This document shows, in pieces, positions 47,765 to 61,373 of a DNA stretch of 64,000 bases. This DNA comes from Ruania rhizosphaerae (GTDB lineage: Bacteria; Actinomycetota; Actinomycetes; Actinomycetales; Beutenbergiaceae): positions 124,001 to 188,000 of the forward strand of contig NZ_VSMB01000007.1 of assembly GCF_009805705.1 (NCBI RefSeq). The letters run 5' to 3'. Within the stretch, counting starts at the first letter, position 1; every line of letters starts with the position of its first letter. Made by a program: the position numbers and the translations under genes. The notes beneath the pieces were generated by a model, which was not told the DNA's origin, searched no databases, and saw only the letters and a program-made list of their open reading frames with translations.

Positions 47765-47928
47765 GCCCGTACGCCACCGTGAGCTGGAGCGCGGGGGTGA
47801 CAGACATCTCAACGCCACCGGCGCCGTCAGGAATCCGACCTGGCTTGACACGCGGAGGTGACCTCGGAAGACTCCACTGAATCGTTCCATTCTTGCCGGC
47901 GGTGGCACTCGCCACGTCCGGAGTGCGG

Positions 47929-51027: not shown

Positions 51028-52047
51028 CTAGTGCCGGGCGCCCACGGGAGCGACGGTCTGCACGATCGAACGCACCGGCGAACCTGGATCGGTGAGGCGC
51101 TCCAGCAACAGTTGCGCCGCCGTCGTCCCCAGGGCACGTGGATTCAATGGCACCAGGTGCACATCTGTGGTGCGGGACGTGGCGAACGGCAGGTCGCCGA
51201 TGATCCCCACACCGACCGCGCCGCCGGGAACGGGTGCGCCGGCAGAGTCCCCCCGACCGTGGCCGGTCAGTGCCACATGCGAGTCCGCCAGCGCGCGCAG
51301 CACCCCGACCCCCACCAGGTTGTTCGTTGCCAGCACGGCATCGGGAGGCTCGGGCAGGTCGAGCAGATGGGCCAATGCTTCATATCCGCCGTCCACACGG
51401 AAGTTGGCGTGGACGAGTAGGTCCTCCGGTGCGTCCACACCGACGGCCCCGAGTGCGCGCGACCACCCGGAGGCACGTTCGATCGCCGTCCGGGTGCCGA
51501 CAGGCCCGGTGATGCATGCGATCCGGTGGAACCCGCTCGCCAGTAGTTCGCGGGCGCAGCGTTCACCCAGGGCCTGGTTGTCGAACGCCACCTGATCGAC
51601 CGGCCGTTCCACCTGCCGGTCCAGCACCACCACCGCCCGGCCACGGTCCAGGAGGGCGTCCAGCTGGGGTTGTCCGCTCGCCGGAGCGATGAGTACCCCT
51701 GCCATGTTCTCGTGCTCGGCCACGCCGAGGTACCGGCCCTCCTTGCCGGGATCATCGTCGGTGTTGCACAGCACCACCGAGTAGCCCGCGCCATGCAGCA
51801 CGTCCTCCACTCCGCGCGCCACGGCCGTGAAGAACGGGTTCTCGATGTCCGGGAGCACCAGGGCCACCACGTCACTCGCTCCCCGTCGCAGCGACCGAGC
51901 CGTGCGATCCGGGATGTACCCGAGGTTCTCGACGGCGGATCGCACCTTCGCCGCCAGCTCCCGGTTGACGTCCTTGCCGTTGAGCACCCGCGAGACGGTG
52001 GCCGTGGACACACCGGCCTCACGGGCCACATCCACGATCCGCGCCAT
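51028..52047 (-). CDS. LacI family transcriptional regulator
   Basis: The protein has 339 residues. The HTH is at residues 2-22 (ARIVDVAREAGVSTATVSRVLN), then LPDIENPFFTAVARGVEDVL. The sensor domain carries an unusual Gly-rich stretch (HGRGDSAGAPVPGGAVGV) just where most relatives read 'VPEDVAVVGFDD'. The ATG at 52047 has AAGGAGGAG upstream. It lies between the isomerase-like gene and the nucleoside hydrolase, and either could be its target. Confidence 0.85.
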   Translation of the reverse strand: MARIVDVAREAGVSTATVSRVLNGKDVNRELAAKVRSAVENLGYIPDRTARSLRRGASDVVALVLPDIENPFFTAVARGVEDVLHGAGYSVVLCNTDDDPGKEGRYLGVAEHENMAGVLIAPASGQPQLDALLDRGRAVVVLDRQVERPVDQVAFDNQALGERCARELLASGFHRIACITGPVGTRTAIERASGWSRALGAVGVDAPEDLLVHANFRVDGGYEALAHLLDLPEPPDAVLATNNLVGVGVLRALADSHVALTGHGRGDSAGAPVPGGAVGVGIIGDLPFATSRTTDVHLVPLNPRALGTTAAQLLLERLTDPGSPVRSIVQTVAPVGARH

Positions 52048-52090
52048 GTCTCCTCCTTGTCGTCCGCCACATCGTACGGAGGATGTCGAT

Positions 52091-52104
52091 TCCTGCCGGC
52101 AGGA
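52091..52104. promoter_or_regulatory. 14-bp palindrome between lacI-type and nucleoside hydrolase genes
   Basis: TCCTGCCGGCAGGA is a perfect palindrome centred on CG. It lies 44 bp from the LacI start and 43 bp from the nucleoside hydrolase start, in the divergent promoter region. Confidence 0.45.
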
Positions 52105-52134
52105 CGGGCGGAACGTCGTCCTGCACACGACTGG

Positions 52135-52146
52135 CAGACTGGGCAC
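52135..52146 (+). promoter_or_regulatory. Possible leaderless -10 for the nucleoside hydrolase gene
   Basis: CAGACT (52135-52140) is six bases before the ATG at 52147 and there is no ribosome site. The hexamer is a weak match. Confidence 0.3.
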
Positions 52147-53112
52147 ATGACTGGTGCTACCCCGCTCTACCTCGACTGTGACACCGGAATCGACGACGCG
52201 CTCGCCCTCGCCTACCTCCTCGCCTCTCCGGAAGTGCACGTGGCCGGGATCGGCACGGTCAGCGGGAATGTCTCGGCTGGCGTGGCCGCCGAGAACACGC
52301 TGGCCCTGCTGGCCCTGGCGGGCCGGGAGGAGATCCCGGTGTCCGTCGGATCCACCGACCCGCTGCGCGGGACCTTCGCCGGTGGATCGCCGGACGTCCA
52401 CGGCCAGAACGGTCTCGGTGGGGTGAGCCTCGAACCGGCGACGGCCCGGCCGGACCCGCGGGACGCCGTCGACCTCCTCATCGACTTGGCTCGCCACTAC
52501 CCCGGCGAGCTGCGGATCCTGGCCATCGGCCCGCTGACCAATCTCGCTCAGGCGCTTGAACGTGAGCCGGAGCTGCCGGCACTGGTGCGGGACGTCGTCG
52601 TGATGGGGGGCGCAGTCCTGGCCCCGGGGAACGTGAGCGCAGTGGCGGAGGCGAACATCGCCAACGACCCCGAGGCGGCTGCGGCGGTGATGAGTGCCGA
52701 CTGGGACGTCATGCTCGTGCCGCTCGACGTCACGATGGAGCACACGCTCGACGAGCTCGGCCGTCGTCGGCTGCTGGAGGCGCCGGAGGCGATCTCACGC
52801 GCGGTCGGTGAGTCGCTGGAGGCCTACCTCGACCGCTATCTGCAGGTCTACGGCTACCGCGCCTGCGCCCTGCACGATCCGCTCGCCGCCGCGCTGGTGG
52901 TGGGGACAGTACAGGCCACGCGCGCGCCCCGGGTTCCGGTGGTGGTCGACCACAGCGACGGACCGGGCCGGGGCCAGACGATCGCCGATATGCGTGAGCA
53001 GCGGCGAGGTCCCGTGGACGTACCGGGTGCACGGTGCCAGGTCGTCCTCGAGACCGACCTGCAGGTCGGACCGGTACTGCTCGATCGGTTGGCCGGGCCG
53101 CCGGTCGCGTGA
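52147..53112 (+). CDS. Inosine-uridine preferring nucleoside hydrolase family
   Basis: This enzyme cleaves ribonucleosides to base and ribose. It has 321 residues. The calcium-binding cluster D-C-D-T-G-I-D-D is at residues 10-17 (YLDCDTGIDDALAL), with ILAIGPLTNLAQAL and VVMGGAV further on, and a late His-Asp block (ALHDPLAAA). It converges with the next LacI gene, leaving only 6 bp between stops. Confidence 0.9.
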   Translation: MTGATPLYLDCDTGIDDALALAYLLASPEVHVAGIGTVSGNVSAGVAAENTLALLALAGREEIPVSVGSTDPLRGTFAGGSPDVHGQNGLGGVSLEPATARPDPRDAVDLLIDLARHYPGELRILAIGPLTNLAQALEREPELPALVRDVVVMGGAVLAPGNVSAVAEANIANDPEAAAAVMSADWDVMLVPLDVTMEHTLDELGRRRLLEAPEAISRAVGESLEAYLDRYLQVYGYRACALHDPLAAALVVGTVQATRAPRVPVVVDHSDGPGRGQTIADMREQRRGPVDVPGARCQVVLETDLQVGPVLLDRLAGPPVA

Positions 53113-53118
53113 GCCGGA

Positions 53119-54150
53119 TCAGATAGCCGAGCCGCTGGAGGCGCGCACGACCAGCTCCGGTTCGAACTCCACCTGCCGTGAGCGCCCGGGCTCGCTCTCG
53201 CGCAGCAGCATGTCGGCCGCGGTCCAGCCGAGGGTATGCATCGGCTGGCGGACCGAGGTCAACGGCGTGGTGAGCATCGAGGCGAAGATGACGTCGTCAT
53301 AGCCGACGACGGCCATGTCCCCCGGAATGGAGACGCCGCAGTCGCGTAGGGCTCGCAAGGCGCCCAGGGCGGTGAAGTCGTTCGCGCAGAACATGGCCGT
53401 CGGGCGTTCGGTCGTCTCGGCCAGCAACCGGTGGACGGCGGCGTCGGCGGCGTCGGCATTGAGCGCATCGAGGTTCACCTCGACCAGGGCCTCGGCCGGG
53501 TCGAAGCCGCGGGAGGTCAGGGTGGCGATGACGCCGTCACGCCGGTCCACGCACTGGCGGAGTGTGAGCGGGCCGTTGAGGAACACGAACCTCGTGTGCC
53601 CCAGATCGAGCAGGTGGTTCATCGCCAGCGATGCTCCGCCGACGTCATCAACGGCCACCGACCCGATCTCCGGAACCGGGGAGGTGTGGTCGAGCAGCAC
53701 CACGTCGGTGCCGCGTTCACGCAGCGCCAGCAGCCCGTCCAAGCTGCCGTGAGAGGGGGTGGCGATGACACCCCGCACCCCGCGCTCCTCGAACAGGCGC
53801 AGGAATCTGGCCTCACGCTCGGGATCCTCATCGGAGCTGCACAGCATGAGCGTGTGGTCGTCCTGAGCGAGCCGGTCCTCGATCCCGCGCGCCATCTCGG
53901 TGAAGAACGGGTTCGCGATGTCGAGCACCACGGCACCGACGGTGGTGATCTCGCCACTACGGAGCTGGCGGGCGGAGGCGTTCCGGACGAAGCGGAGCTC
54001 CCCGATGGCCTCCTCCACCTTGGCCCGGGTGGCGGGAGAGACGGAGTCGGGCCGGTTGAGGACGTTGGAGACCGTGCCGACAGAGACGCCTGCCTGCTTC
54101 GCCACATCGGTGACGCTCGGGCGTCTCGGGCCGCCGTTCCGCCTGGGCAT
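53119..54150 (-). CDS. LacI family regulator, probable rhamnose repressor
   Basis: The protein has 343 residues. The HTH is at residues 11-31 (RPSVTDVAKQAGVSVGTVSN), with LDIANPFFTEMARGIEDRL and IPGDMAVVGYDDVIFAS. The ATG at 54150 has GAGGAG upstream. TGTATCGTTTCA in its own promoter matches CTGAATCGTTTCAG in front of rhaI at 11 of 12 core bases, so it probably represses itself and the rhamnose operon 6 kb away. Confidence 0.85.
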   Translation of the reverse strand: MPRRNGGPRRPSVTDVAKQAGVSVGTVSNVLNRPDSVSPATRAKVEEAIGELRFVRNASARQLRSGEITTVGAVVLDIANPFFTEMARGIEDRLAQDDHTLMLCSSDEDPEREARFLRLFEERGVRGVIATPSHGSLDGLLALRERGTDVVLLDHTSPVPEIGSVAVDDVGGASLAMNHLLDLGHTRFVFLNGPLTLRQCVDRRDGVIATLTSRGFDPAEALVEVNLDALNADAADAAVHRLLAETTERPTAMFCANDFTALGALRALRDCGVSIPGDMAVVGYDDVIFASMLTTPLTSVRQPMHTLGWTAADMLLRESEPGRSRQVEFEPELVVRASSGSAI

Positions 54151-54191
54151 GGTGCTCCTCGTCTGTACCGGGTCTGCGCCGATCGGGTGAG

Positions 54192-54203
54192 TGTATCGTT
54201 TCA
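54192..54203. promoter_or_regulatory. LacI-type operator shared with the rhamnose promoter
   Basis: TGTATCGTTTCA differs by one base from the core at 60135-60146. It lies between the divergent LacI and phosphopantetheinyl transferase genes, 42 bp and 28 bp from their starts. Confidence 0.65.
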
Positions 54204-54230
54204 CCATTGGATGAGGGCGCATCTGCGACA

Positions 54231-54746
54231 ATGACGGCGATGGCCGCCCCCGTGCCGACCGGCATACCCATCAGTGTTCAGTGGCATCGTGCCGACCTCG
54301 GCACTGATGAGGCCCTGCGCCGCCACCTCGCCGACGACCTGATGCCCATGCCGGGAGCGGATCTGCGGATCGGTCACCTGTGCCCGCGATGCGGCGGCGC
54401 CGACCACGGCCGCCCGTGGGCGCGTGCCCGCGAGCGCACCATCGCCGTCTCGGCCGCGCGTGCCGGGGGGCACCTGGTGACCGCCGCTGGCCTCCCGCCC
54501 GTTCACCGGATCGGGGTCGATATCGAATGCGCTGACGCGGTACCCATCGACCCCACGCTCGTCCTGCACCGGGACGAGTCCGGTCAGGACGTCCTGCAGG
54601 TCTGGGTTGCGAAGGAGGCGATCCTGAAGATGCTCGGGGTGGGGCTCAGCGTGTCGATGCCCTCGATCCGGGTGGCCGACTTCTCGGTGCACGATCTGCC
54701 CGCACCCGCGGGCCTTCTTGCGCGGGTGTGCGTGAACTCACCGTGA
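54231..54746 (+). CDS. 4'-phosphopantetheinyl transferase family protein
   Basis: This is a probable Sfp-type enzyme that would load the phosphopantetheine arm onto a carrier domain. It is short, 171 residues. Visible motifs are HLCPRCGGADHGRPWA (the CxxCG...HG.P N-terminal block), IGVDIE (metal-binding Asp/Glu) and VWVAKEAILKMLG (the W-x-x-KEA-x-x-K block). The first half of the usual N-terminal lobe is reduced. Its place beside an aminopeptidase and a carrier-domain-containing Pls-like synthetase suggests that synthetase as the substrate. Its stop overlaps the aminopeptidase's by nine bases, tail to tail. Confidence 0.75.
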   Translation: MTAMAAPVPTGIPISVQWHRADLGTDEALRRHLADDLMPMPGADLRIGHLCPRCGGADHGRPWARARERTIAVSAARAGGHLVTAAGLPPVHRIGVDIECADAVPIDPTLVLHRDESGQDVLQVWVAKEAILKMLGVGLSVSMPSIRVADFSVHDLPAPAGLLARVCVNSP

Positions 54747-56075
54747 CGCGGGCAGTGTGACCTCGTGGAGCCAGGCGTCGAAGAAGGCGCGCAGCGACCG
54801 TCCGCTGACCTCCTCGGCCAACGCGAGGAAGTCCTCGGTGCAGACGACCCCACCGCGGTGCTGCGCGACCCAGCGGCGCAGCAGCTGCCCGAAGTCCTCG
54901 GCACCGATCAGGTCCCGCAGGGCCGCCAGCGTCAGCGCCCCGCGCTTGTAGACGCGATCGTCGAACATGTCCGCCGCACCCGGATCGCTGAGCCGCAGAT
55001 CCTGGGGCAGCGCGCTGAGCCGAGCGTGCTCGCGGGCCGCATGCTCGGCGATCCCCGGACCACCGGAGTGCTCGGACCACACCCATTCGCTGAAGCAGGC
55101 GAACCCTTCGTGCAGCCAGATGTCCTGCCAGGAGCTCGCCGTGACGGCGTTGCCGAACCACTGGTGGGACAGCTCGTGCGCGATGAGCCGGACGGCGTCC
55201 CAGTCCGCCGAGCAGTGGTTGCGTCCGAAGGTCGAGAGGGCCTGTGACTCGAGCGGGATCTCCAACGGGTCGTCGGTGATCACACACGAGTAGGAGTCGA
55301 AGGGGTAGGGCCCGAACGCGTCCTCGAAGCACGTCAGCATCTCGCGCTGCCGGCCGAAGGACGCCGCGAAAGCGTCCGTGGGCAGTCCCTCCGGCCGGAG
55401 GATCCGGATCGGTACGCCGGGTCCGTCCAGCGACTGCTCGCGGTACTTCCCTATCTGCACCGAGGCCAGGTACGGAGCCATCGGGTGGCGCTGCTGGAAC
55501 GTCCATGTCCGCCGTGAGCCACGGCGTCTCACCTCCCGCGTCTCACCGCTGAAGGCCACGGTGTAGTCGGCGGGCAGGGTGAGGTGCACGTCGTAGCTGG
55601 CCTTGTCCCGCGCCTGGTCGTTGCACGGGAACCACGACGGCGACCCGTGCGGCTGCGAGGCCACGATCACCCCGTCGGTCAGCTCCTCCCAGCCTGCCTC
55701 GCCCAGGGTGGCCGAGCGCACCGGCCTGGGGTTGCCCCCGTACTCGATGCGGACGACGAGCTCCGACCCGGCGGGTGCGGGCTTCTTCAGGGTGACGGTG
55801 AGCCGCTTCGGCTTGCGGGTGTACTTGCCGAGCGTGGCGCCCGTCACGGACACCTTCGTCACGCGCAGCTCGTGCAGGTCGAAGCGCAGTGCGGAGGTGT
55901 CGGTGAGGGTGTGCAGCCGCACCTCGGCCACGCCGTCGAGCAGGTTGCTGCGGGGTTGATAGGTCAGGTCCAACTGGTAATGGTCGACGGCGTAGCGCGG
56001 GTCGCCATGGTCGGGCATGTACGTATCGGTCGTGCCGGGTGTAACGGGCGTCTCGGGGGTGTGCGTTCGCGTCAC
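54738..56075 (-). CDS. M1 family zinc aminopeptidase
   Basis: This zinc peptidase of the gluzincin clan has 445 residues. The metal site is HELSH at about 300-304 with the third ligand Glu323 in LHEGFACFSEW. The substrate-binding GxMEN motif of typical M1 enzymes is altered: DPLEIPLESQALSTF replaces the usual GGMEN. It lacks the C-terminal HEAT domain and has no signal peptide. The GTG start overlaps the stop of the Pls-like synthetase (GTGA), so they are made together. In epsilon-poly-lysine producers an aminopeptidase degrades the polymer, and this one could trim or detoxify the product. Confidence 0.88.
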   Translation of the reverse strand: MTRTHTPETPVTPGTTDTYMPDHGDPRYAVDHYQLDLTYQPRSNLLDGVAEVRLHTLTDTSALRFDLHELRVTKVSVTGATLGKYTRKPKRLTVTLKKPAPAGSELVVRIEYGGNPRPVRSATLGEAGWEELTDGVIVASQPHGSPSWFPCNDQARDKASYDVHLTLPADYTVAFSGETREVRRRGSRRTWTFQQRHPMAPYLASVQIGKYREQSLDGPGVPIRILRPEGLPTDAFAASFGRQREMLTCFEDAFGPYPFDSYSCVITDDPLEIPLESQALSTFGRNHCSADWDAVRLIAHELSHQWFGNAVTASSWQDIWLHEGFACFSEWVWSEHSGGPGIAEHAAREHARLSALPQDLRLSDPGAADMFDDRVYKRGALTLAALRDLIGAEDFGQLLRRWVAQHRGGVVCTEDFLALAEEVSGRSLRAFFDAWLHEVTLPASR

Positions 56076-59000
56076 GCCTCCTCCTCCCAGGGGCCGATCG
56101 GGTTGCCGAGCCACCGGGTGCGGCTCGGTACGGATTCACCGCGCATCACCAGGGAGGCGGGCCCTACTGTGGCATCACGGTCGAGATGCGCAGCAGGCAG
56201 GATCACACTGTTCGGCCCGAGAGTGGCTCCGGCGCCGATGACCACGCGGTCCATGGCGAGCACACGGTCGTGGAACAGATGGGTCTGGACCACGCATCCG
56301 GCGTTGATGCATGATCCTGCGCCCAGCTCGACCAGATCCGGTTCGGGAAGCCAGTACGTATCGCACCAGACGCCGTCACCGATCTTTGCCCCCATGGCGC
56401 GGAACCACACGTTCAGGGCGACGGTGCCCTGCGCCAGGGAGCAGAACCAACGCGCGGCGAGAACTTCGGTGAACGTGTCCGCCAACTCACCGCGCCACAC
56501 AGCCCCGCTCCAGAGCGGGTGCTCACTGACCCGGTGCGTACCCACCAGGAGCCACTTCGCGGCCACGGTGATCCCCGCGGCGATCAGACCGGCGAGCAGG
56601 AGGACCAGCGGGCCCAGCAGCACTGCGGCGATGAGGCCCGTCCAGGACCAGGGTTCACCGGCCGACCCTCCGAGGAGCACCAGCAGTGCGGTGCCCACGA
56701 CGAGCATGAGGCACACGGAGCCGAACAGGGGGATCACCCGGCCCGTCTCGACCAGTCCGCGCAGCACTCGCAGGCGGGTGCTCGGTTCATAGGTGCGCGT
56801 CTCGTCGGCCGGCCCGCCCTCGCGGCGCAGCTGGGTGGGCGGGCTACCGATCCACGACGTCCCCGCCCGCGCGGTGCCGCGCTTGGGTGCCGCGGAGAGG
56901 ACGGCCACGAGGGAGGCCTTCGGGATCTTCCGCCCGGGTGCGGCCATCCCGGAGTTGCCGAGGAAGGCGCGCTTGCCGATCTTCACGCGTTCGGCTCGCA
57001 GCCAACCACCGGTGAGCTCGTAGCCGCCCACGAGGGTGTCGTCCGCGAGGAAGGACTGGTCGCCGATCTGCGTCAGCTTCGGGATCAACACCACCGTGGA
57101 GGCCTCGACGCCGCGGCCCACACGGGCGCCGAGTGCTCGCAGCCACCACGGCGTGAGTGCTCCGGCATACAACGGAAAGAGCCAGTCGCGGGCTTCGTCC
57201 ATGAGCCGTACCGTGGCCCACACCGCCAGACCCCGCCCGGAGCGGACGGGCACCGGGCCGCTCCGGACGGCCGGGGCGAGGATCCGCACGACGGCGATGA
57301 CGAGGATCATCAACGTCGCGTAGCCGGCCAGTGCGGCCAGTGGCAGCCACGGCCACACTTTCGCCCACGCGTGGCTCAGGTCCGTCGTGGTACGAAGCAC
57401 CGGCCACAGCACCAGCGCACCGACCGCGGCGGCGCACCAGGGCAGGGCGGCCAGGAGCATGCCGATGACGGCGTAGCCCGCCACCCAGGCGCGACCACCG
57501 GCCGGGGCTCGCTTCGACCAGGGCCCCCGGGCGGAGCCGGTGACCTCAGCGGGAGATCCGGAGACCAGCCGCTCGGCCCGCACCCTGCCGGCGACGAACG
57601 ATCCCGCAGCCACTTCGGCGCCCCGGCCCACTGTGGCGCCTGGGCCGAGCGTGCTCCGGGCACCGATCCGCGCCCGGGCGGCGATCGAGATCCGGCCCAG
57701 ATGCACCCGGTCACCGTCGATCCATGCACCGGTCAGGTCCACCTCGGGTTCGACGCAGGCGCGTTTGCCGATCCGGAGGAACCCGGTGACTGGCGGCAGG
57801 GAGTGCAGATCCACGTTCGAGGCGATCTTGGCGCCGAGCAGGCGGGCGTACCACGTGATCGAGGCGGCACCGGCGAGACCCGTCGCAGCCAGTTCATCCT
57901 GGATCCGGCCGGCCAGCCAGTACCGCAGATGGACCTTCCCGCCGCGGGGGTAGGTGCCCGGCTGGATGCCACGCAGCACCACCCGGATCAGCCCGGCCGC
58001 GACGAGCATCCGGCCCTGCGGGAGGACGAACAGTGCGGTGGTCACGACCACCAGCCAGATCGGGGGCGCCGGCCACCAGCCGAGTACCGGGTGCAGCAGC
58101 GCGCCGGCGAGCAGCAGCCAGGCGATCCATCGCAGCGTCGCCAGTGCGCGCAGCGGGTAGAAGGCGAGGATCTGCCCCACCTTCGTCCTCGTGCGGATGG
58201 GGGAGACCGCGCGGTTCGTGCGTGTGGTGGTCGTGCTTGACTGGACGAGGCTGTCCAGATATGCCGATAGTGCGCCCAGGGTCGGGTAGGCGTAGATGTC
58301 GCCGACGGCGACCTCCGGATGGCGTGCCCGGATCCGCCCGACGGTCTGTGCCGCGGTGAGCGAACCGCCGCCGAGGTCGAAGAAGTCCGCTCCGGCGTCG
58401 GCCGGATCCGCGGCGAGTACATCGCGCCAGATGCCCACCAGCCACTCCTGGGTGGGTGACCATCGTGCGGTCGTGCTCGGTGTGCTGGGCAGCGGCCACG
58501 GCAGCGCGTCCCGGTCCACCTTGCCGGAGGTGCGGGTGGGAAGGGTGTCGACCACGGCGAGGCGCGGCACCAGTGCCGCTGGCATGCGCTCGCGCAGCAG
58601 AGCGAGTGCGGCGCTCTGATCGAAGGTCTCCTCGACGGTGAGGTAGCCGACCAGCACCTGGTTGCCGGCGGAGGTCTCGCGCACGGCAGCGGCGGCGCCG
58701 GCCACCCCGGCCAGTCGCAGCAGTTGGCCATCGATCTCGCCGAGCTCGATCCGTCGGCCGCCGAGCTTGATCTGATCGTCGGCCCGCCCGGCGAAGACCA
58801 GGCCGGCCGGGTCGTTCCTGACCAGATCGCCTGAGCGGTACCCGCGCGCCCAGCCCAGGGTGGGCACCGGCGCGTACTTCTCAGCGTCCTTGTCCGGATC
58901 GAGGTAGCGGGCCAGTCCCACGCCGCCGATGATCAACTCACCGGTCTCACCTTCGGCCACCGGGACGCCGTCGTGATCGACGACGGCGAGGTCCCACCCG

Positions 59001-60016
59001 TCCAGCGGCAGTCCGATCCGGACCGGCTCGGACCCGTCCAGGGGTGCTGCGCATGCCACCACAGTGGCCTCGGTCGGGCCGTAGGTGTTCCACACCTCGC
59101 GGCCGGGCCCTTGCAGCCGGGCGGCGAGCTCGGCCGGTGCCGCCTCGCCGCCGAGGATCACCAGCCGGACACGATCCAGCGACGCTGGTGGCCACAGCGC
59201 CACCAGGGTGGGCACCGTGGAGACGATGGTGATGTCGTTGGCCGTCAGCCACGGCCCGACGTCCACACCGGAGCGCACCAGCGAGCGTGGCGCGGGGACG
59301 AGGCAGGCGGCGTGCGCCCAGGCGAGCCACATCTCCTCACAACTGGCATCGAAACCGACCGAGAGCCCGGCCATCACCCGGTCTCTCGGACCGATCGGGT
59401 CGGCGGTGAGGAAGAGACGGGATTCGGCATCGACGAAGGCGGCGGCACTGCGGTGGGAGACGGCGACGCCCTTCGGCGTTCCGGTGGAACCCGAAGTGAA
59501 GATGATCCACGCGTCATCGGCAGGGCGTGGGGTCCGCTCGGGTGCTTCTGCGGGCGAAGGTGCGCCGTGGACGCCAGGGGGAGGGCCGCCGTCGGGGGTG
59601 GTGAACTGCACCGTGGGAGCGGTGGCCGTGATCTCGAGACTGTTGCCGATGATGGCGATCACGGCAGCCTCGGTGAAGACGGTGCGCGCCCGCTCCGGCG
59701 GGTCATCCGCATCGACCGGCACGTAGGCGGCGCCGGCCATCAGAGTGCCCAAGATCGCGACGTACAGCTCCGTGGTTCCGGAGCTGACCCGCACCCCCAC
59801 CCGATCGCCGCGGCGCACACCGAGGGTGGTGAGCCGGTCGGCCAGGTCCGCAGCAGCTTCGGCGAGTTCGCGGTACGAGAGCTGGGTGAGGCCGCTGTCG
59901 AGGGCGGGGGCCTCGGGATGGGCGTTCACGGAGTCCGTGAAGATGTCCATCAGGGTGCGGGGCGGGGTGGCGCGGTCGGAGGCGAGCAGCGAGGGCAGCA
60001 AGCTGGCGGCGGGCAC
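56072..60016 (-). CDS. Pls/PosA-type nonribosomal peptide synthetase (probable poly-amino-acid synthetase)
   Basis: The membrane synthetase has 1314 residues. The adenylation domain (about 20-510) has FTSGSTGTPKG (173-183), YGPTEATVV, YRSGDLVR and the catalytic Lys499. A carrier domain has Ser552 in LGGGSLTA. Then come paired membrane segments alternating with three soluble hexapeptide-repeat-like domains (KIASNVDLHSLPPVTGFLRIG; GARVGRGVEASTVVLIP; GAKIGDGVWCDTYWLPEPD, shown in parts). There is no condensation or thioesterase domain. This is the layout of Streptomyces Pls, which links lysines through epsilon-amide bonds and is about the same length. Pocket residues read by hand as D-A-E-S-I-G-T-V-V-K, close to known lysine codes. 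A GTG start at 60016 is used. It is divergent from rhaI. Confidence 0.88.
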   Translation of the reverse strand: MPAASLLPSLLASDRATPPRTLMDIFTDSVNAHPEAPALDSGLTQLSYRELAEAAADLADRLTTLGVRRGDRVGVRVSSGTTELYVAILGTLMAGAAYVPVDADDPPERARTVFTEAAVIAIIGNSLEITATAPTVQFTTPDGGPPPGVHGAPSPAEAPERTPRPADDAWIIFTSGSTGTPKGVAVSHRSAAAFVDAESRLFLTADPIGPRDRVMAGLSVGFDASCEEMWLAWAHAACLVPAPRSLVRSGVDVGPWLTANDITIVSTVPTLVALWPPASLDRVRLVILGGEAAPAELAARLQGPGREVWNTYGPTEATVVACAAPLDGSEPVRIGLPLDGWDLAVVDHDGVPVAEGETGELIIGGVGLARYLDPDKDAEKYAPVPTLGWARGYRSGDLVRNDPAGLVFAGRADDQIKLGGRRIELGEIDGQLLRLAGVAGAAAAVRETSAGNQVLVGYLTVEETFDQSAALALLRERMPAALVPRLAVVDTLPTRTSGKVDRDALPWPLPSTPSTTARWSPTQEWLVGIWRDVLAADPADAGADFFDLGGGSLTAAQTVGRIRARHPEVAVGDIYAYPTLGALSAYLDSLVQSSTTTTRTNRAVSPIRTRTKVGQILAFYPLRALATLRWIAWLLLAGALLHPVLGWWPAPPIWLVVVTTALFVLPQGRMLVAAGLIRVVLRGIQPGTYPRGGKVHLRYWLAGRIQDELAATGLAGAASITWYARLLGAKIASNVDLHSLPPVTGFLRIGKRACVEPEVDLTGAWIDGDRVHLGRISIAARARIGARSTLGPGATVGRGAEVAAGSFVAGRVRAERLVSGSPAEVTGSARGPWSKRAPAGGRAWVAGYAVIGMLLAALPWCAAAVGALVLWPVLRTTTDLSHAWAKVWPWLPLAALAGYATLMILVIAVVRILAPAVRSGPVPVRSGRGLAVWATVRLMDEARDWLFPLYAGALTPWWLRALGARVGRGVEASTVVLIPKLTQIGDQSFLADDTLVGGYELTGGWLRAERVKIGKRAFLGNSGMAAPGRKIPKASLVAVLSAAPKRGTARAGTSWIGSPPTQLRREGGPADETRTYEPSTRLRVLRGLVETGRVIPLFGSVCLMLVVGTALLVLLGGSAGEPWSWTGLIAAVLLGPLVLLLAGLIAAGITVAAKWLLVGTHRVSEHPLWSGAVWRGELADTFTEVLAARWFCSLAQGTVALNVWFRAMGAKIGDGVWCDTYWLPEPDLVELGAGSCINAGCVVQTHLFHDRVLAMDRVVIGAGATLGPNSVILPAAHLDRDATVGPASLVMRGESVPSRTRWLGNPIGPWEEEA

Positions 60017-60133
60017 GGTGAACAGTCTGGCGTATGCCGGACCGTACGCGCCGCCATGGGGCCCGGTCGCGACGCGCGTTCCTCGACGGCCCAGCCCTTG
60101 ACGGCAGCGGCAGGCATCTTCTAATCTGATGCT

Positions 60134-60147
60134 GAATCGTTTCAGAT
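60134..60147. promoter_or_regulatory. LacI-type operator between the Pls-like and rhaI genes
   Basis: CTGAATCGTTTCAG is a 14-bp palindrome with one central mismatch. It is 61 bp before the rhaI ATG and 118 bp from the synthetase start, so it could affect both divergent promoters. The core recurs at 54192. Confidence 0.75.
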
Positions 60148-60180
60148 CGGATGTCGACTGCTGTCGTCACCATCGGACTT

Positions 60181-60192
60181 GGAGTGCACTCC
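60181..60192 (+). promoter_or_regulatory. Self-complementary ribosome-binding site of rhaI
   Basis: GGAGTGCACTCC is a perfect palindrome whose first four bases are the only Shine-Dalgarno match for the ATG at 60195. If folded, it would hide the ribosome site. Confidence 0.4.
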
Positions 60193-60194
60193 CC

Positions 60195-61373
60195 ATGACC
60201 ACCTCGGCCACCGCCGCCCCGCAGGTACGTGAAGCCCTCGCCGCCCAGACCATCGAGCTCCCCTCGTGGGCGTTCGGCAACTCCGGCACCCGGTTCAAGG
60301 TGTTCTCGACCCCCGGGGTGCCGCGCGATCCCTTCGAGAAGATCGCCGACGTCGCCCAGGTGCACGCCTATACCGGCGCTGCGCCGCGGGTCTCCCTGCA
60401 CATCCCGTGGGATCTGGTGGACGATTACGAGGCGCTCGCTGCACATGCGAGCGATCTCGGTGTGCAGATCGGGGCGATCAACTCCAACCTGTTCCAGGAG
60501 GACATCTACAAGCTCGGCTCGCTCACCCATGTCGACCCCGCCGTGCGCCGGAAGGCGATTGACCACCACAAGCAGTGCATCGACGTGATGCGCGCGACCG
60601 GGTCCACCGACCTCAAGCTCTGGCTCCCCGACGGCACCAACTACGCCGGCCAGGACGACATCCGGGGCCGGCAGGATCGCCTCGCCGAGTCCCTGCAGGA
60701 GATCTACGCCGCACTCGACCCGAACCACCGGCTGCTGATCGAGTACAAGTTCTTCGAGCCGTACTTCTACACGATGGACATCCCCGACTGGGGCACCTCG
60801 CTGGTGCACTGCCTGGCCCTCGGCGACCAAGCCGCCGTCGTGCTCGATACCGGCCACCACGCGCCGGGGACGAACATCGAGTTCATCGTCGCCCAGCTGG
60901 TGCGGCTCGGGAAGCTCGGCGCGTTCGACTTCAACTCCCGCAACTATGCCGATGACGATCTCATCGTCGGCGCCGCGGACCCCTTCCAGCTGTTCCGGAT
61001 CATGAACGAGATCGTCACCAATGACGCGCTGAAGGCGGAAGCGGGCGTGAACTTCATGCTCGACCAGTGCCACAACATCGAGCCGAAGATCCCTGGCCAG
61101 ATTCGCTCGGTCATGAACGTTCAGGAAGCCACGGCCAAGGCACTGATCGTCGACCGCGAAGCCCTGCGCGAGGCGCAGATCTCCGGTGACGTGCTCGGTG
61201 CCAACGCCGTGCTGATGGACGCCTACAACACCGACGTGCGCCCGCTGCTCGCCGAGATCCGCGCCGAGAAGGGGCTGGCCGAAGACCCCTACGCCGCCTT
61301 CAACGCCTCCGGATACCTCGACCAGATCGCCGCCGAGCGGGTCGGCGGGCAGCAGGCCGGCTGGGGCGCCTGA
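60195..61373 (+). CDS. rhaI: L-rhamnose isomerase
   Basis: This enzyme converts L-rhamnose to L-rhamnulose. It has 392 residues of the Pseudomonas-type RhaI TIM-barrel family rather than E. coli RhaA. Metal ligands are in LLIEYKFFEPYFY, VLDTGHHAPGTN and FDFNSRNYADDDL. The ATG at 60195 is chosen over the 60129 frame, which would translate through the operator. It begins the operon rhaI, rhaD-dehydrogenase, rhaB. Confidence 0.9.
   Translation: MTTSATAAPQVREALAAQTIELPSWAFGNSGTRFKVFSTPGVPRDPFEKIADVAQVHAYTGAAPRVSLHIPWDLVDDYEALAAHASDLGVQIGAINSNLFQEDIYKLGSLTHVDPAVRRKAIDHHKQCIDVMRATGSTDLKLWLPDGTNYAGQDDIRGRQDRLAESLQEIYAALDPNHRLLIEYKFFEPYFYTMDIPDWGTSLVHCLALGDQAAVVLDTGHHAPGTNIEFIVAQLVRLGKLGAFDFNSRNYADDDLIVGAADPFQLFRIMNEIVTNDALKAEAGVNFMLDQCHNIEPKIPGQIRSVMNVQEATAKALIVDREALREAQISGDVLGANAVLMDAYNTDVRPLLAEIRAEKGLAEDPYAAFNASGYLDQIAAERVGGQQAGWGA

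Follow-up and report, generated by a model that had tools for sequence, protein, structure and literature searches.

A three-gene locus was analysed in a 64,000-nucleotide stretch of the Ruania rhizosphaerae genome (contig NZ_VSMB01000007.1 of assembly GCF_009805705.1, forward-strand positions 124,001 to 188,000; hereafter the window), in which a homologue of the epsilon-poly-L-lysine synthetase Pls is encoded beside an M1 metallopeptidase and a small phosphopantetheinyl transferase (PPTase), and which is read here as a probable epsilon-poly-L-lysine cassette. The interval 54231-60016, singled out in an earlier description of the window made from its letters and open reading frames (ORFs; hereafter the original prediction), is bounded by the outermost gene ends of this cassette, whose genes are as follows.

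54231-54746, plus strand: gene for an Sfp-type 4'-phosphopantetheinyl transferase, assigned by PF01648, an AlphaFold2 (AF2) model searched with Foldseek, and invariant motif residues
54738-56075, minus strand: gene for an M1 metallopeptidase, PldII-like (PF01433/PF17900; in-frame GTGA; HExxH...E; structural match 6a8z)
56072-60016, minus strand: pls, encoding an epsilon-poly-L-lysine synthetase homologue (TIGR02353, TIGR01733, PF00550, pocket DAESIGTVVK, AF2 model)

As judged from its family matches, the 1314-amino-acid (aa) product of the pls ORF is a Pls/PosA synthetase. The NCBIfam model of the Pls/PosA terminal domain, TIGR02353, is matched at 637.8 bits (cut-off 423.1) by residues 615-1307, covering model positions 3-695 of 695. 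This region is preceded by an adenylation (A) domain (PF00501, residues 26-370; TIGR01733, residues 47-442) and a carrier domain (PF00550, residues 524-587), and the four Pfam families listed for the protein include AMP-binding, PP-binding and hexapeptide repeats, with neither a condensation nor a thioesterase family among them. The family and layout read earlier from domain order (A domain, carrier domain, and membrane segments with hexapeptide-like domains, lacking condensation and thioesterase domains) are thus borne out, including coverage of the C-terminal half by the Pls family. A condensation partner elsewhere, named in the original prediction as a refuting case, was not encountered: a domain search of the whole genome found no Condensation domain, on which ground a second nonribosomal peptide synthetase (NRPS) was rejected as partner of Pls, and the only A domain above the TIGR01733 cut-off is that of Pls itself. 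The other matches to that model all fall below the cut-off, and two of them were examined, with L136-L140 set aside: L135 is an acetate-CoA ligase, and L134 is an AMP-binding enzyme for which the listing gives AMP-binding_C but not a carrier domain.

An AF2 model of Pls residues 598-1314, built from 62 sequences (predicted local distance difference test score, pLDDT, 87; predicted TM-score, pTM, 0.90), contains three repeats, each composed of a pair of long helices and then a run of short strands, and hydropathy peaks lie near residues 624-646, 655-680, 850-868, 892-910, 1097-1115 and 1128-1146. The three helix pairs and six peaks agree with the six segments around three soluble domains that had been anticipated, and the predicted topology has three pairs of transmembrane helices, six helices in all, arranged around the three C domains. 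PosA is described, in the portion of its paper drawn on here (PMC10522769), as three left-handed beta-helices on six helices, and the handedness of the putative beta-helices in the window's Pls is taken from that paper together with the hexapeptide match. Foldseek returned 24 Protein Data Bank matches for the C domain at E <= 0.001, which by title are mostly hexapeptide-type acetyltransferases (query TM-score <= 0.18); these fit a beta-helix and do not point to a mechanism. In an alignment of the C-terminal region, 67 positions are invariant across 65 sequences, an outgroup linked to dat and ask genes included, among them Q1244-T-H-L-F-x-D-R1251 of the third repeat, D992, N1021, E1177 and E1225, and the invariant positions may mark a catalytic or structural core that does not depend on the substrate.

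Among solved structures, the A domain is best matched by the epsilon-poly-L-lysine synthase 7wew (612 bits; the A domain of the annotated Pls of Streptomyces NBC_01454 scores 983 bits against it). The ten pocket residues, at positions assigned by the GrsA scheme, are D223, A224, E227, S266, I287, G289, T311, V319, V320 and K499, and the 7wew alignment, inspected by eye, agrees with a lysine-type pocket. All ten are common to the window's protein and 99 of 100 homologues, the exception (L119) being truncated at its N-terminus; the NBC_01454 Pls is identical at 10 of 10 positions, as is a Kitasatospora homologue. Full-length identity to Pls proteins encoded beside M1 genes is 50% (Streptomyces) and 54% (Kitasatospora). 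According to the consulted part of the PosA paper (PMC10522769), Ala at the second pocket position goes with lysine, Met with ornithine, and Phe with poly-diaminopropionate (PDAP) or poly-diaminobutyrate (PDAB). Because 7wew is the best match, the pocket equals that of Streptomyces Pls and its second position is Ala, the predicted product is epsilon-poly-L-lysine and not an undescribed polymer. The poorly described product of the original prediction is therefore not upheld. An A domain unable to activate any free amino acid, also named there as a refuting case, is not what this pocket would predict, since it is of the kind that lysine-activating Pls enzymes have.

For the M1 protein, the best solved match is 6a8z, and the HExxH...E motif and a conserved Tyr are kept in it and in 102 other M1 proteins aligned; it is 38% identical to the M1 protein adjoining the annotated Streptomyces pls. 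Its overlap with the synthetase gene, noticed earlier, is confirmed with a shifted start, which is probably the GTG of a GTGA that overlaps the pls stop by 4 bp and follows GGAGGAGGAGG, giving 445 aa instead of the 458-aa ORF. In a survey of 100 loci (80 retained homologues and 20 stretches from further relatives of our choosing), a same-strand M1 gene lies downstream of pls in all 100, a figure not representative of the whole family since these loci are close homologues. The computed gap is below 60 bases in 93 loci and 80 to 2,106 bases in 7, and an in-frame start overlapping the pls stop by four bases occurs in 54. In Streptomyces albulus, pldII is reported to be translationally coupled and PldII to lie outside the membrane (PMC9223678, in part), and the overlap in the window suggests that its M1 gene may be translationally coupled to pls as well. 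Whether the peptidase sets chain length is contested, as published accounts disagree: the passages drawn on here from a review state that inactivation of Pld and PldII left epsilon-poly-lysine output and chain length unchanged, and those from a CRISPR interference study report a shift upon pldII repression.

The PPTase gene starts with ATG and is convergent with the M1 gene, their 3' ends overlapping by 9 bp, in keeping with the small PPTase gene that had been described as converging on the peptidase gene. The protein matches PF01648 (ACPS superfamily) at 31.1 bits (cut-off 25) and no NCBIfam model. Its AF2 model (pLDDT 91) has Foldseek matches to 2cg5 (human AASDH-PPT), Sfp (4mrt) and PptT (4qjk), and all 17 matches at E <= 0.001 are PPTases, with a TM-score over the query of about 0.5-0.6. 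Sfp-type PPTases carry the motifs GvDxE and WxxKEAxxK. In an alignment of the window's protein with those of 36 loci (A2; 37 rows, L082 omitted), C50, C53, H58, G59, D96, E98, W124, E128 and K132 are invariant, and the motifs are kept at a mean column identity of only 20%. In 37 of the 100 loci, a convergent PPTase gene was found no more than 300 bp from the 3' end of the M1 gene, a count that includes the 17 BLAST-found neighbours from which, with the window's protein, the first profile was built. An adjacent PPTase occurs in 25 of 37 genus-named loci that the genus name places outside Mycobacteriales, versus 0 of 43 within that order, and in 12 of the 20 remaining loci.

At the level of whole genomes, the Pls family exceeds the TIGR02353 cut-off in 59 of 199 and the PPTase profile has a match in 97, the window's own genome included in both counts. 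The PPTase match occurs in 58 of the 59 pls-positive versus 39 of the 140 pls-negative genomes (Fisher P 1.5e-22, a value that ignores shared ancestry); the profile used holds 12 rows from surveyed genomes plus the window, and up to 17 candidates were scored per genome. It lies within 12 kb of pls in 36 of the 59 pls-positive genomes, and within 2.4 kb in 33 of those. No description of a PPTase linked to Pls was recognised among the open-access papers listed in our literature searches, and the conserved PPTase partner is a modest new point of this locus.

Eight genomes of the same genus (G000-G007; loci L113-L115 and L144-L147 compared) allow the cassette to be viewed as a unit. In all eight, a lacI-family gene and the L-rhamnose isomerase gene rhaI are divergent with a variable interval between them, which in the window spans 54151-60194. 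This interval contains pls, M1 and PPTase genes in G000, G002, G004 and G005; it measures 243 nt and contains none of the three in G001, and it is about 1.1-1.2 kb long with a DeoR-family regulator in G003, G006 and G007. Searches with tblastn (E 1e-6) detected no remnants of the three genes above 45% identity in stretches from the four cassette-less genomes, and divergence from the empty site of G001 is too great for exact breakpoints. The three other cassette-bearing genomes share the arrangement, with identities of 81-96% for Pls, 78-93% for M1 and 57-93% for the PPTase. The A2 profile has a match in all 4 pls-bearing genomes and in none of the 4 that lack pls, and the numbers of PF01648 matches in these two groups are 2, 2, 2 and 2 versus 2, 1, 1 and 0, from which G001 has a second ACPS match not claimed by the PPTase profile. 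That the three genes are present or absent together supports a real unit, a single cassette with predicted make, activate and degrade activities, although the pattern may reflect very few events, given the few genomes. The make/activate/trim set of the original prediction thus stands as a complete three-gene unit, whereas its trimming role shares the disagreement of the literature. Neighbour clustering of the flanks brought out no further gene that accompanies most of the loci (largest cluster, 17 of 100 loci), and some flank clusters resemble shadow ORFs of GC-rich DNA.

The family and its domain layout, a pocket of the lysine type, the overlap of pls and M1 and the joint presence of the three genes are shown here, and from them we infer with a probability of about 0.88 an epsilon-poly-L-lysine cassette, in which the substrate, product, export, enzymatic activities and pairing of PPTase with Pls are predicted. 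The PPTase would place phosphopantetheine on the carrier serine S552 of Pls, and the A domain would adenylate L-lysine and then load the carrier. The threefold membrane-embedded C-terminal domain, with no condensation domain, would link lysines by isopeptide bonds between alpha-carboxyl and epsilon-amino groups. The polymer would then exit the cell, and the presumably translationally coupled M1 peptidase would degrade it like PldII of S. albulus, most likely for self-protection.

Several observations weigh against this interpretation, and those concerning the PPTase lend some substance to the idea, which we regard as unlikely though deserving attention, that it is a general activator present by chance and that the functional unit is pls and M1 alone. 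In 63 of the 100 loci no PPTase was detected beside pls, and just 2 of these loci leave fewer than 600 bases past the M1 gene; the PPTase gene lies on the opposite strand, convergent and outside the pls operon; and this kind of PPTase is present in the 39 pls-negative genomes mentioned above. Neither is its association with pls exclusive, as a further match occurs in 15 of the 36 genomes with a nearby PPTase, and in 23 of the 59 pls-positive genomes no match lies as close as 12 kb to pls. A chance neighbour is nevertheless at odds with the joint presence and absence of profile match and pls within the genus, with the single other ACPS match of the genome lying on another contig (C22; presumably AcpS), and with the finding of no condensation-type NRPS in that genome.

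Other adverse points concern the peptidase and the output of related loci. By hydropathy, the window's M1 protein has no N-terminal hydrophobic stretch, and as PldII is reported outside the membrane, the site of action of the M1 protein may differ, though it might also be exported by some other route. Among 103 M1 proteins a hydrophobic N-terminus was found only in the Streptomyces one, at a cut-off of 1.2 that was picked after this protein (1.59) had narrowly missed 1.6, and with gene starts of our own guessing, because of which an intracellular site is offered as a suggestion only. In addition, C. variabile made no detectable polymer in its own culture, and its pls was expressed in C. glutamicum yet gave no polymer, regulation being suspected (Jiang 2021, PMC8117764, as far as consulted). 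Such silence of a native coryneform pls would suit a locus that is silent or in decay and yields no product, which is improbable for the window, where all three frames are open with motifs intact and the arrangement is kept, at the identities given above, in three other genomes of the genus. Slightly less probable still is a Pls-family synthetase for another cationic homopolymer (delta-poly-ornithine, poly-diaminobutyrate, poly-diaminopropionate or beta-lysine). In its favour, the name of TIGR02353 covers Pls as well as PosA, and PosA makes poly-ornithine, but pocket and neighbour genes speak against such products, the Ala tied to lysine in the consulted part of the PosA paper and the 10/10 identity to Streptomyces Pls being joined by the lack of dat and ask genes among the seven locus proteins searched.

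Extending the epsilon-poly-L-lysine cassette beyond this genus, it is tentatively proposed, at a little short of even odds, that outside Mycobacteriales many actinobacterial epsilon-poly-lysine loci are three-gene cassettes with a dedicated, fast-diverging Sfp-type PPTase, and that the coupled peptidase is intracellular, unlike that of S. albulus. Should Pls require a matching PPTase, this could speculatively be one reason why a coryneform pls gave no polymer in C. glutamicum. The co-inherited PPTase is a testable partner that could help to switch on silent genes for epsilon-poly-lysine, and the place of action of the coupled peptidase is likewise a testable question.

The cassette is bordered by the following features.

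53119-54150, minus strand: lacI-family regulator gene, left border (PF00356/PF13377; ATG at 54150)
54192-54203: TGTATCGTTTCA, a near-palindrome and putative operator in the gap separating the lacI and PPTase genes
60133-60144: TGAATCGTTTCA, a near-palindrome and putative operator in the gap separating pls from rhaI
60195-61373, plus strand: rhaI, L-rhamnose isomerase gene, right border (TIGR02635, 603.3 bits)

The lacI-family gene is likely the rha regulator; its best match in all seven other genomes of the genus either lies beside rhaI or has the cassette or a DeoR-family ORF in between, and rhaI is 81-98% identical in these seven. The near-palindromes on both cassette flanks (TGWATCGTTTCA) resemble LacI operators, and a one-mismatch copy occurs at 47878-47889. 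With no more than one mismatch allowed, the pattern occurs at three sites versus 0.12 expected, an optimistic figure as the pattern was written after both sites had been seen; the symmetric pattern with two mismatches gives 3 sites versus 1.72 expected. Since the rhaI-side site is present in 8 of 8 genomes, it probably serves rhaI, and the lacI-side site is exact in 3 of the 4 cassette-bearing genomes; both tentatively look like LacI-type operators. A 571-aa ORF (51028-52743, minus strand) has a LacI-family match starting near residue 233 and no family match at E 0.001 in its first ~230 residues. Loci of the same genus hold conserved counterparts, with 92% identity over all 571 aa in L114 and 49% over residues 1-208 in L113, and because its N-terminal part is conserved without a family match, it may be a fused regulator. 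A query with the LacI-family regulator, begun one codon ahead of its ATG, had 41 to 80 matches per genome in G001-G007, a very large repertoire that would fit a sugar-catabolic lifestyle.

The rarity suggested by the original prediction is not supported, given the 59 genomes with the family and the Pls homologues reported in Micrococcales genera: the consulted part of Jiang 2021 (PMC8117764) names Arthrobacter, Microbacterium, Brevibacterium, Micrococcus and Dermacoccus. It also places C. variabile pls in an operon with a peptidase and describes the enzyme as functional in S. coelicolor. A dedicated literature search on pls in Nocardioides and Micrococcales recognised no on-point paper among the open-access papers listed. 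As Micrococcales homologues and an operonic peptidase are already in print, the pls-M1 locus belongs to a known system. It appears to be an ordinary but complete gene set for the antimicrobial polymer epsilon-poly-lysine, of a type known in many actinobacteria, the accompanying PPTase gene being less familiar. It strengthens the case that operons encoding Pls with a lysine pocket are common among actinobacteria other than Streptomyces. Full-length pls homologues (49-56% identity) were also seen on 18 plasmid-filed records (H1-H18), some of them chromosome-sized, from Rhodococcus, Nocardia, Arthrobacter, Streptomyces, Kitasatospora and Mycobacterium avium/intracellulare, which suggests that pls may be a mobile gene.

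Among the known systems, the synthetase of Streptomyces NBC_01527 is a full-length homologue of the window's Pls, but differs in its 33% full-length identity, its pocket DFECLSAVTK and its neighbouring dat and aspartate kinase genes, which suggest a poly-diaminobutyrate type. PosA, the delta-poly-L-ornithine synthetase of Acinetobacter baumannii, shares the A domain, carrier domain and membrane-bound terminal domain, and differs in its pocket DMEHNGTVSK, its ornithine substrate and its single-gene operon (PMC10522769, in part). C. variabile likewise has a non-Streptomyces actinobacterial Pls with a lysine-type pocket and a peptidase operon, whereas the PPTase gene of the window has no counterpart mentioned in the portion of Jiang 2021 (PMC8117764) drawn on here. 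In Streptomyces NBC_01454, the annotated pls is also overlapped by four bases by an M1 gene; its M1 protein has the N-terminal hydrophobic stretch absent from that of the window, and no PPTase is annotated in the 4.5 kb past the peptidase gene, in an incomplete gene table, in contrast to the convergent PPTase of the window. The pls-pldII pair of S. albulus resembles the window in its lysine-type pocket, as seen in the 7wew alignment, and in a peptidase gene that lies directly downstream and overlaps pls by 4 bp, according to the consulted part of PMC4361855.

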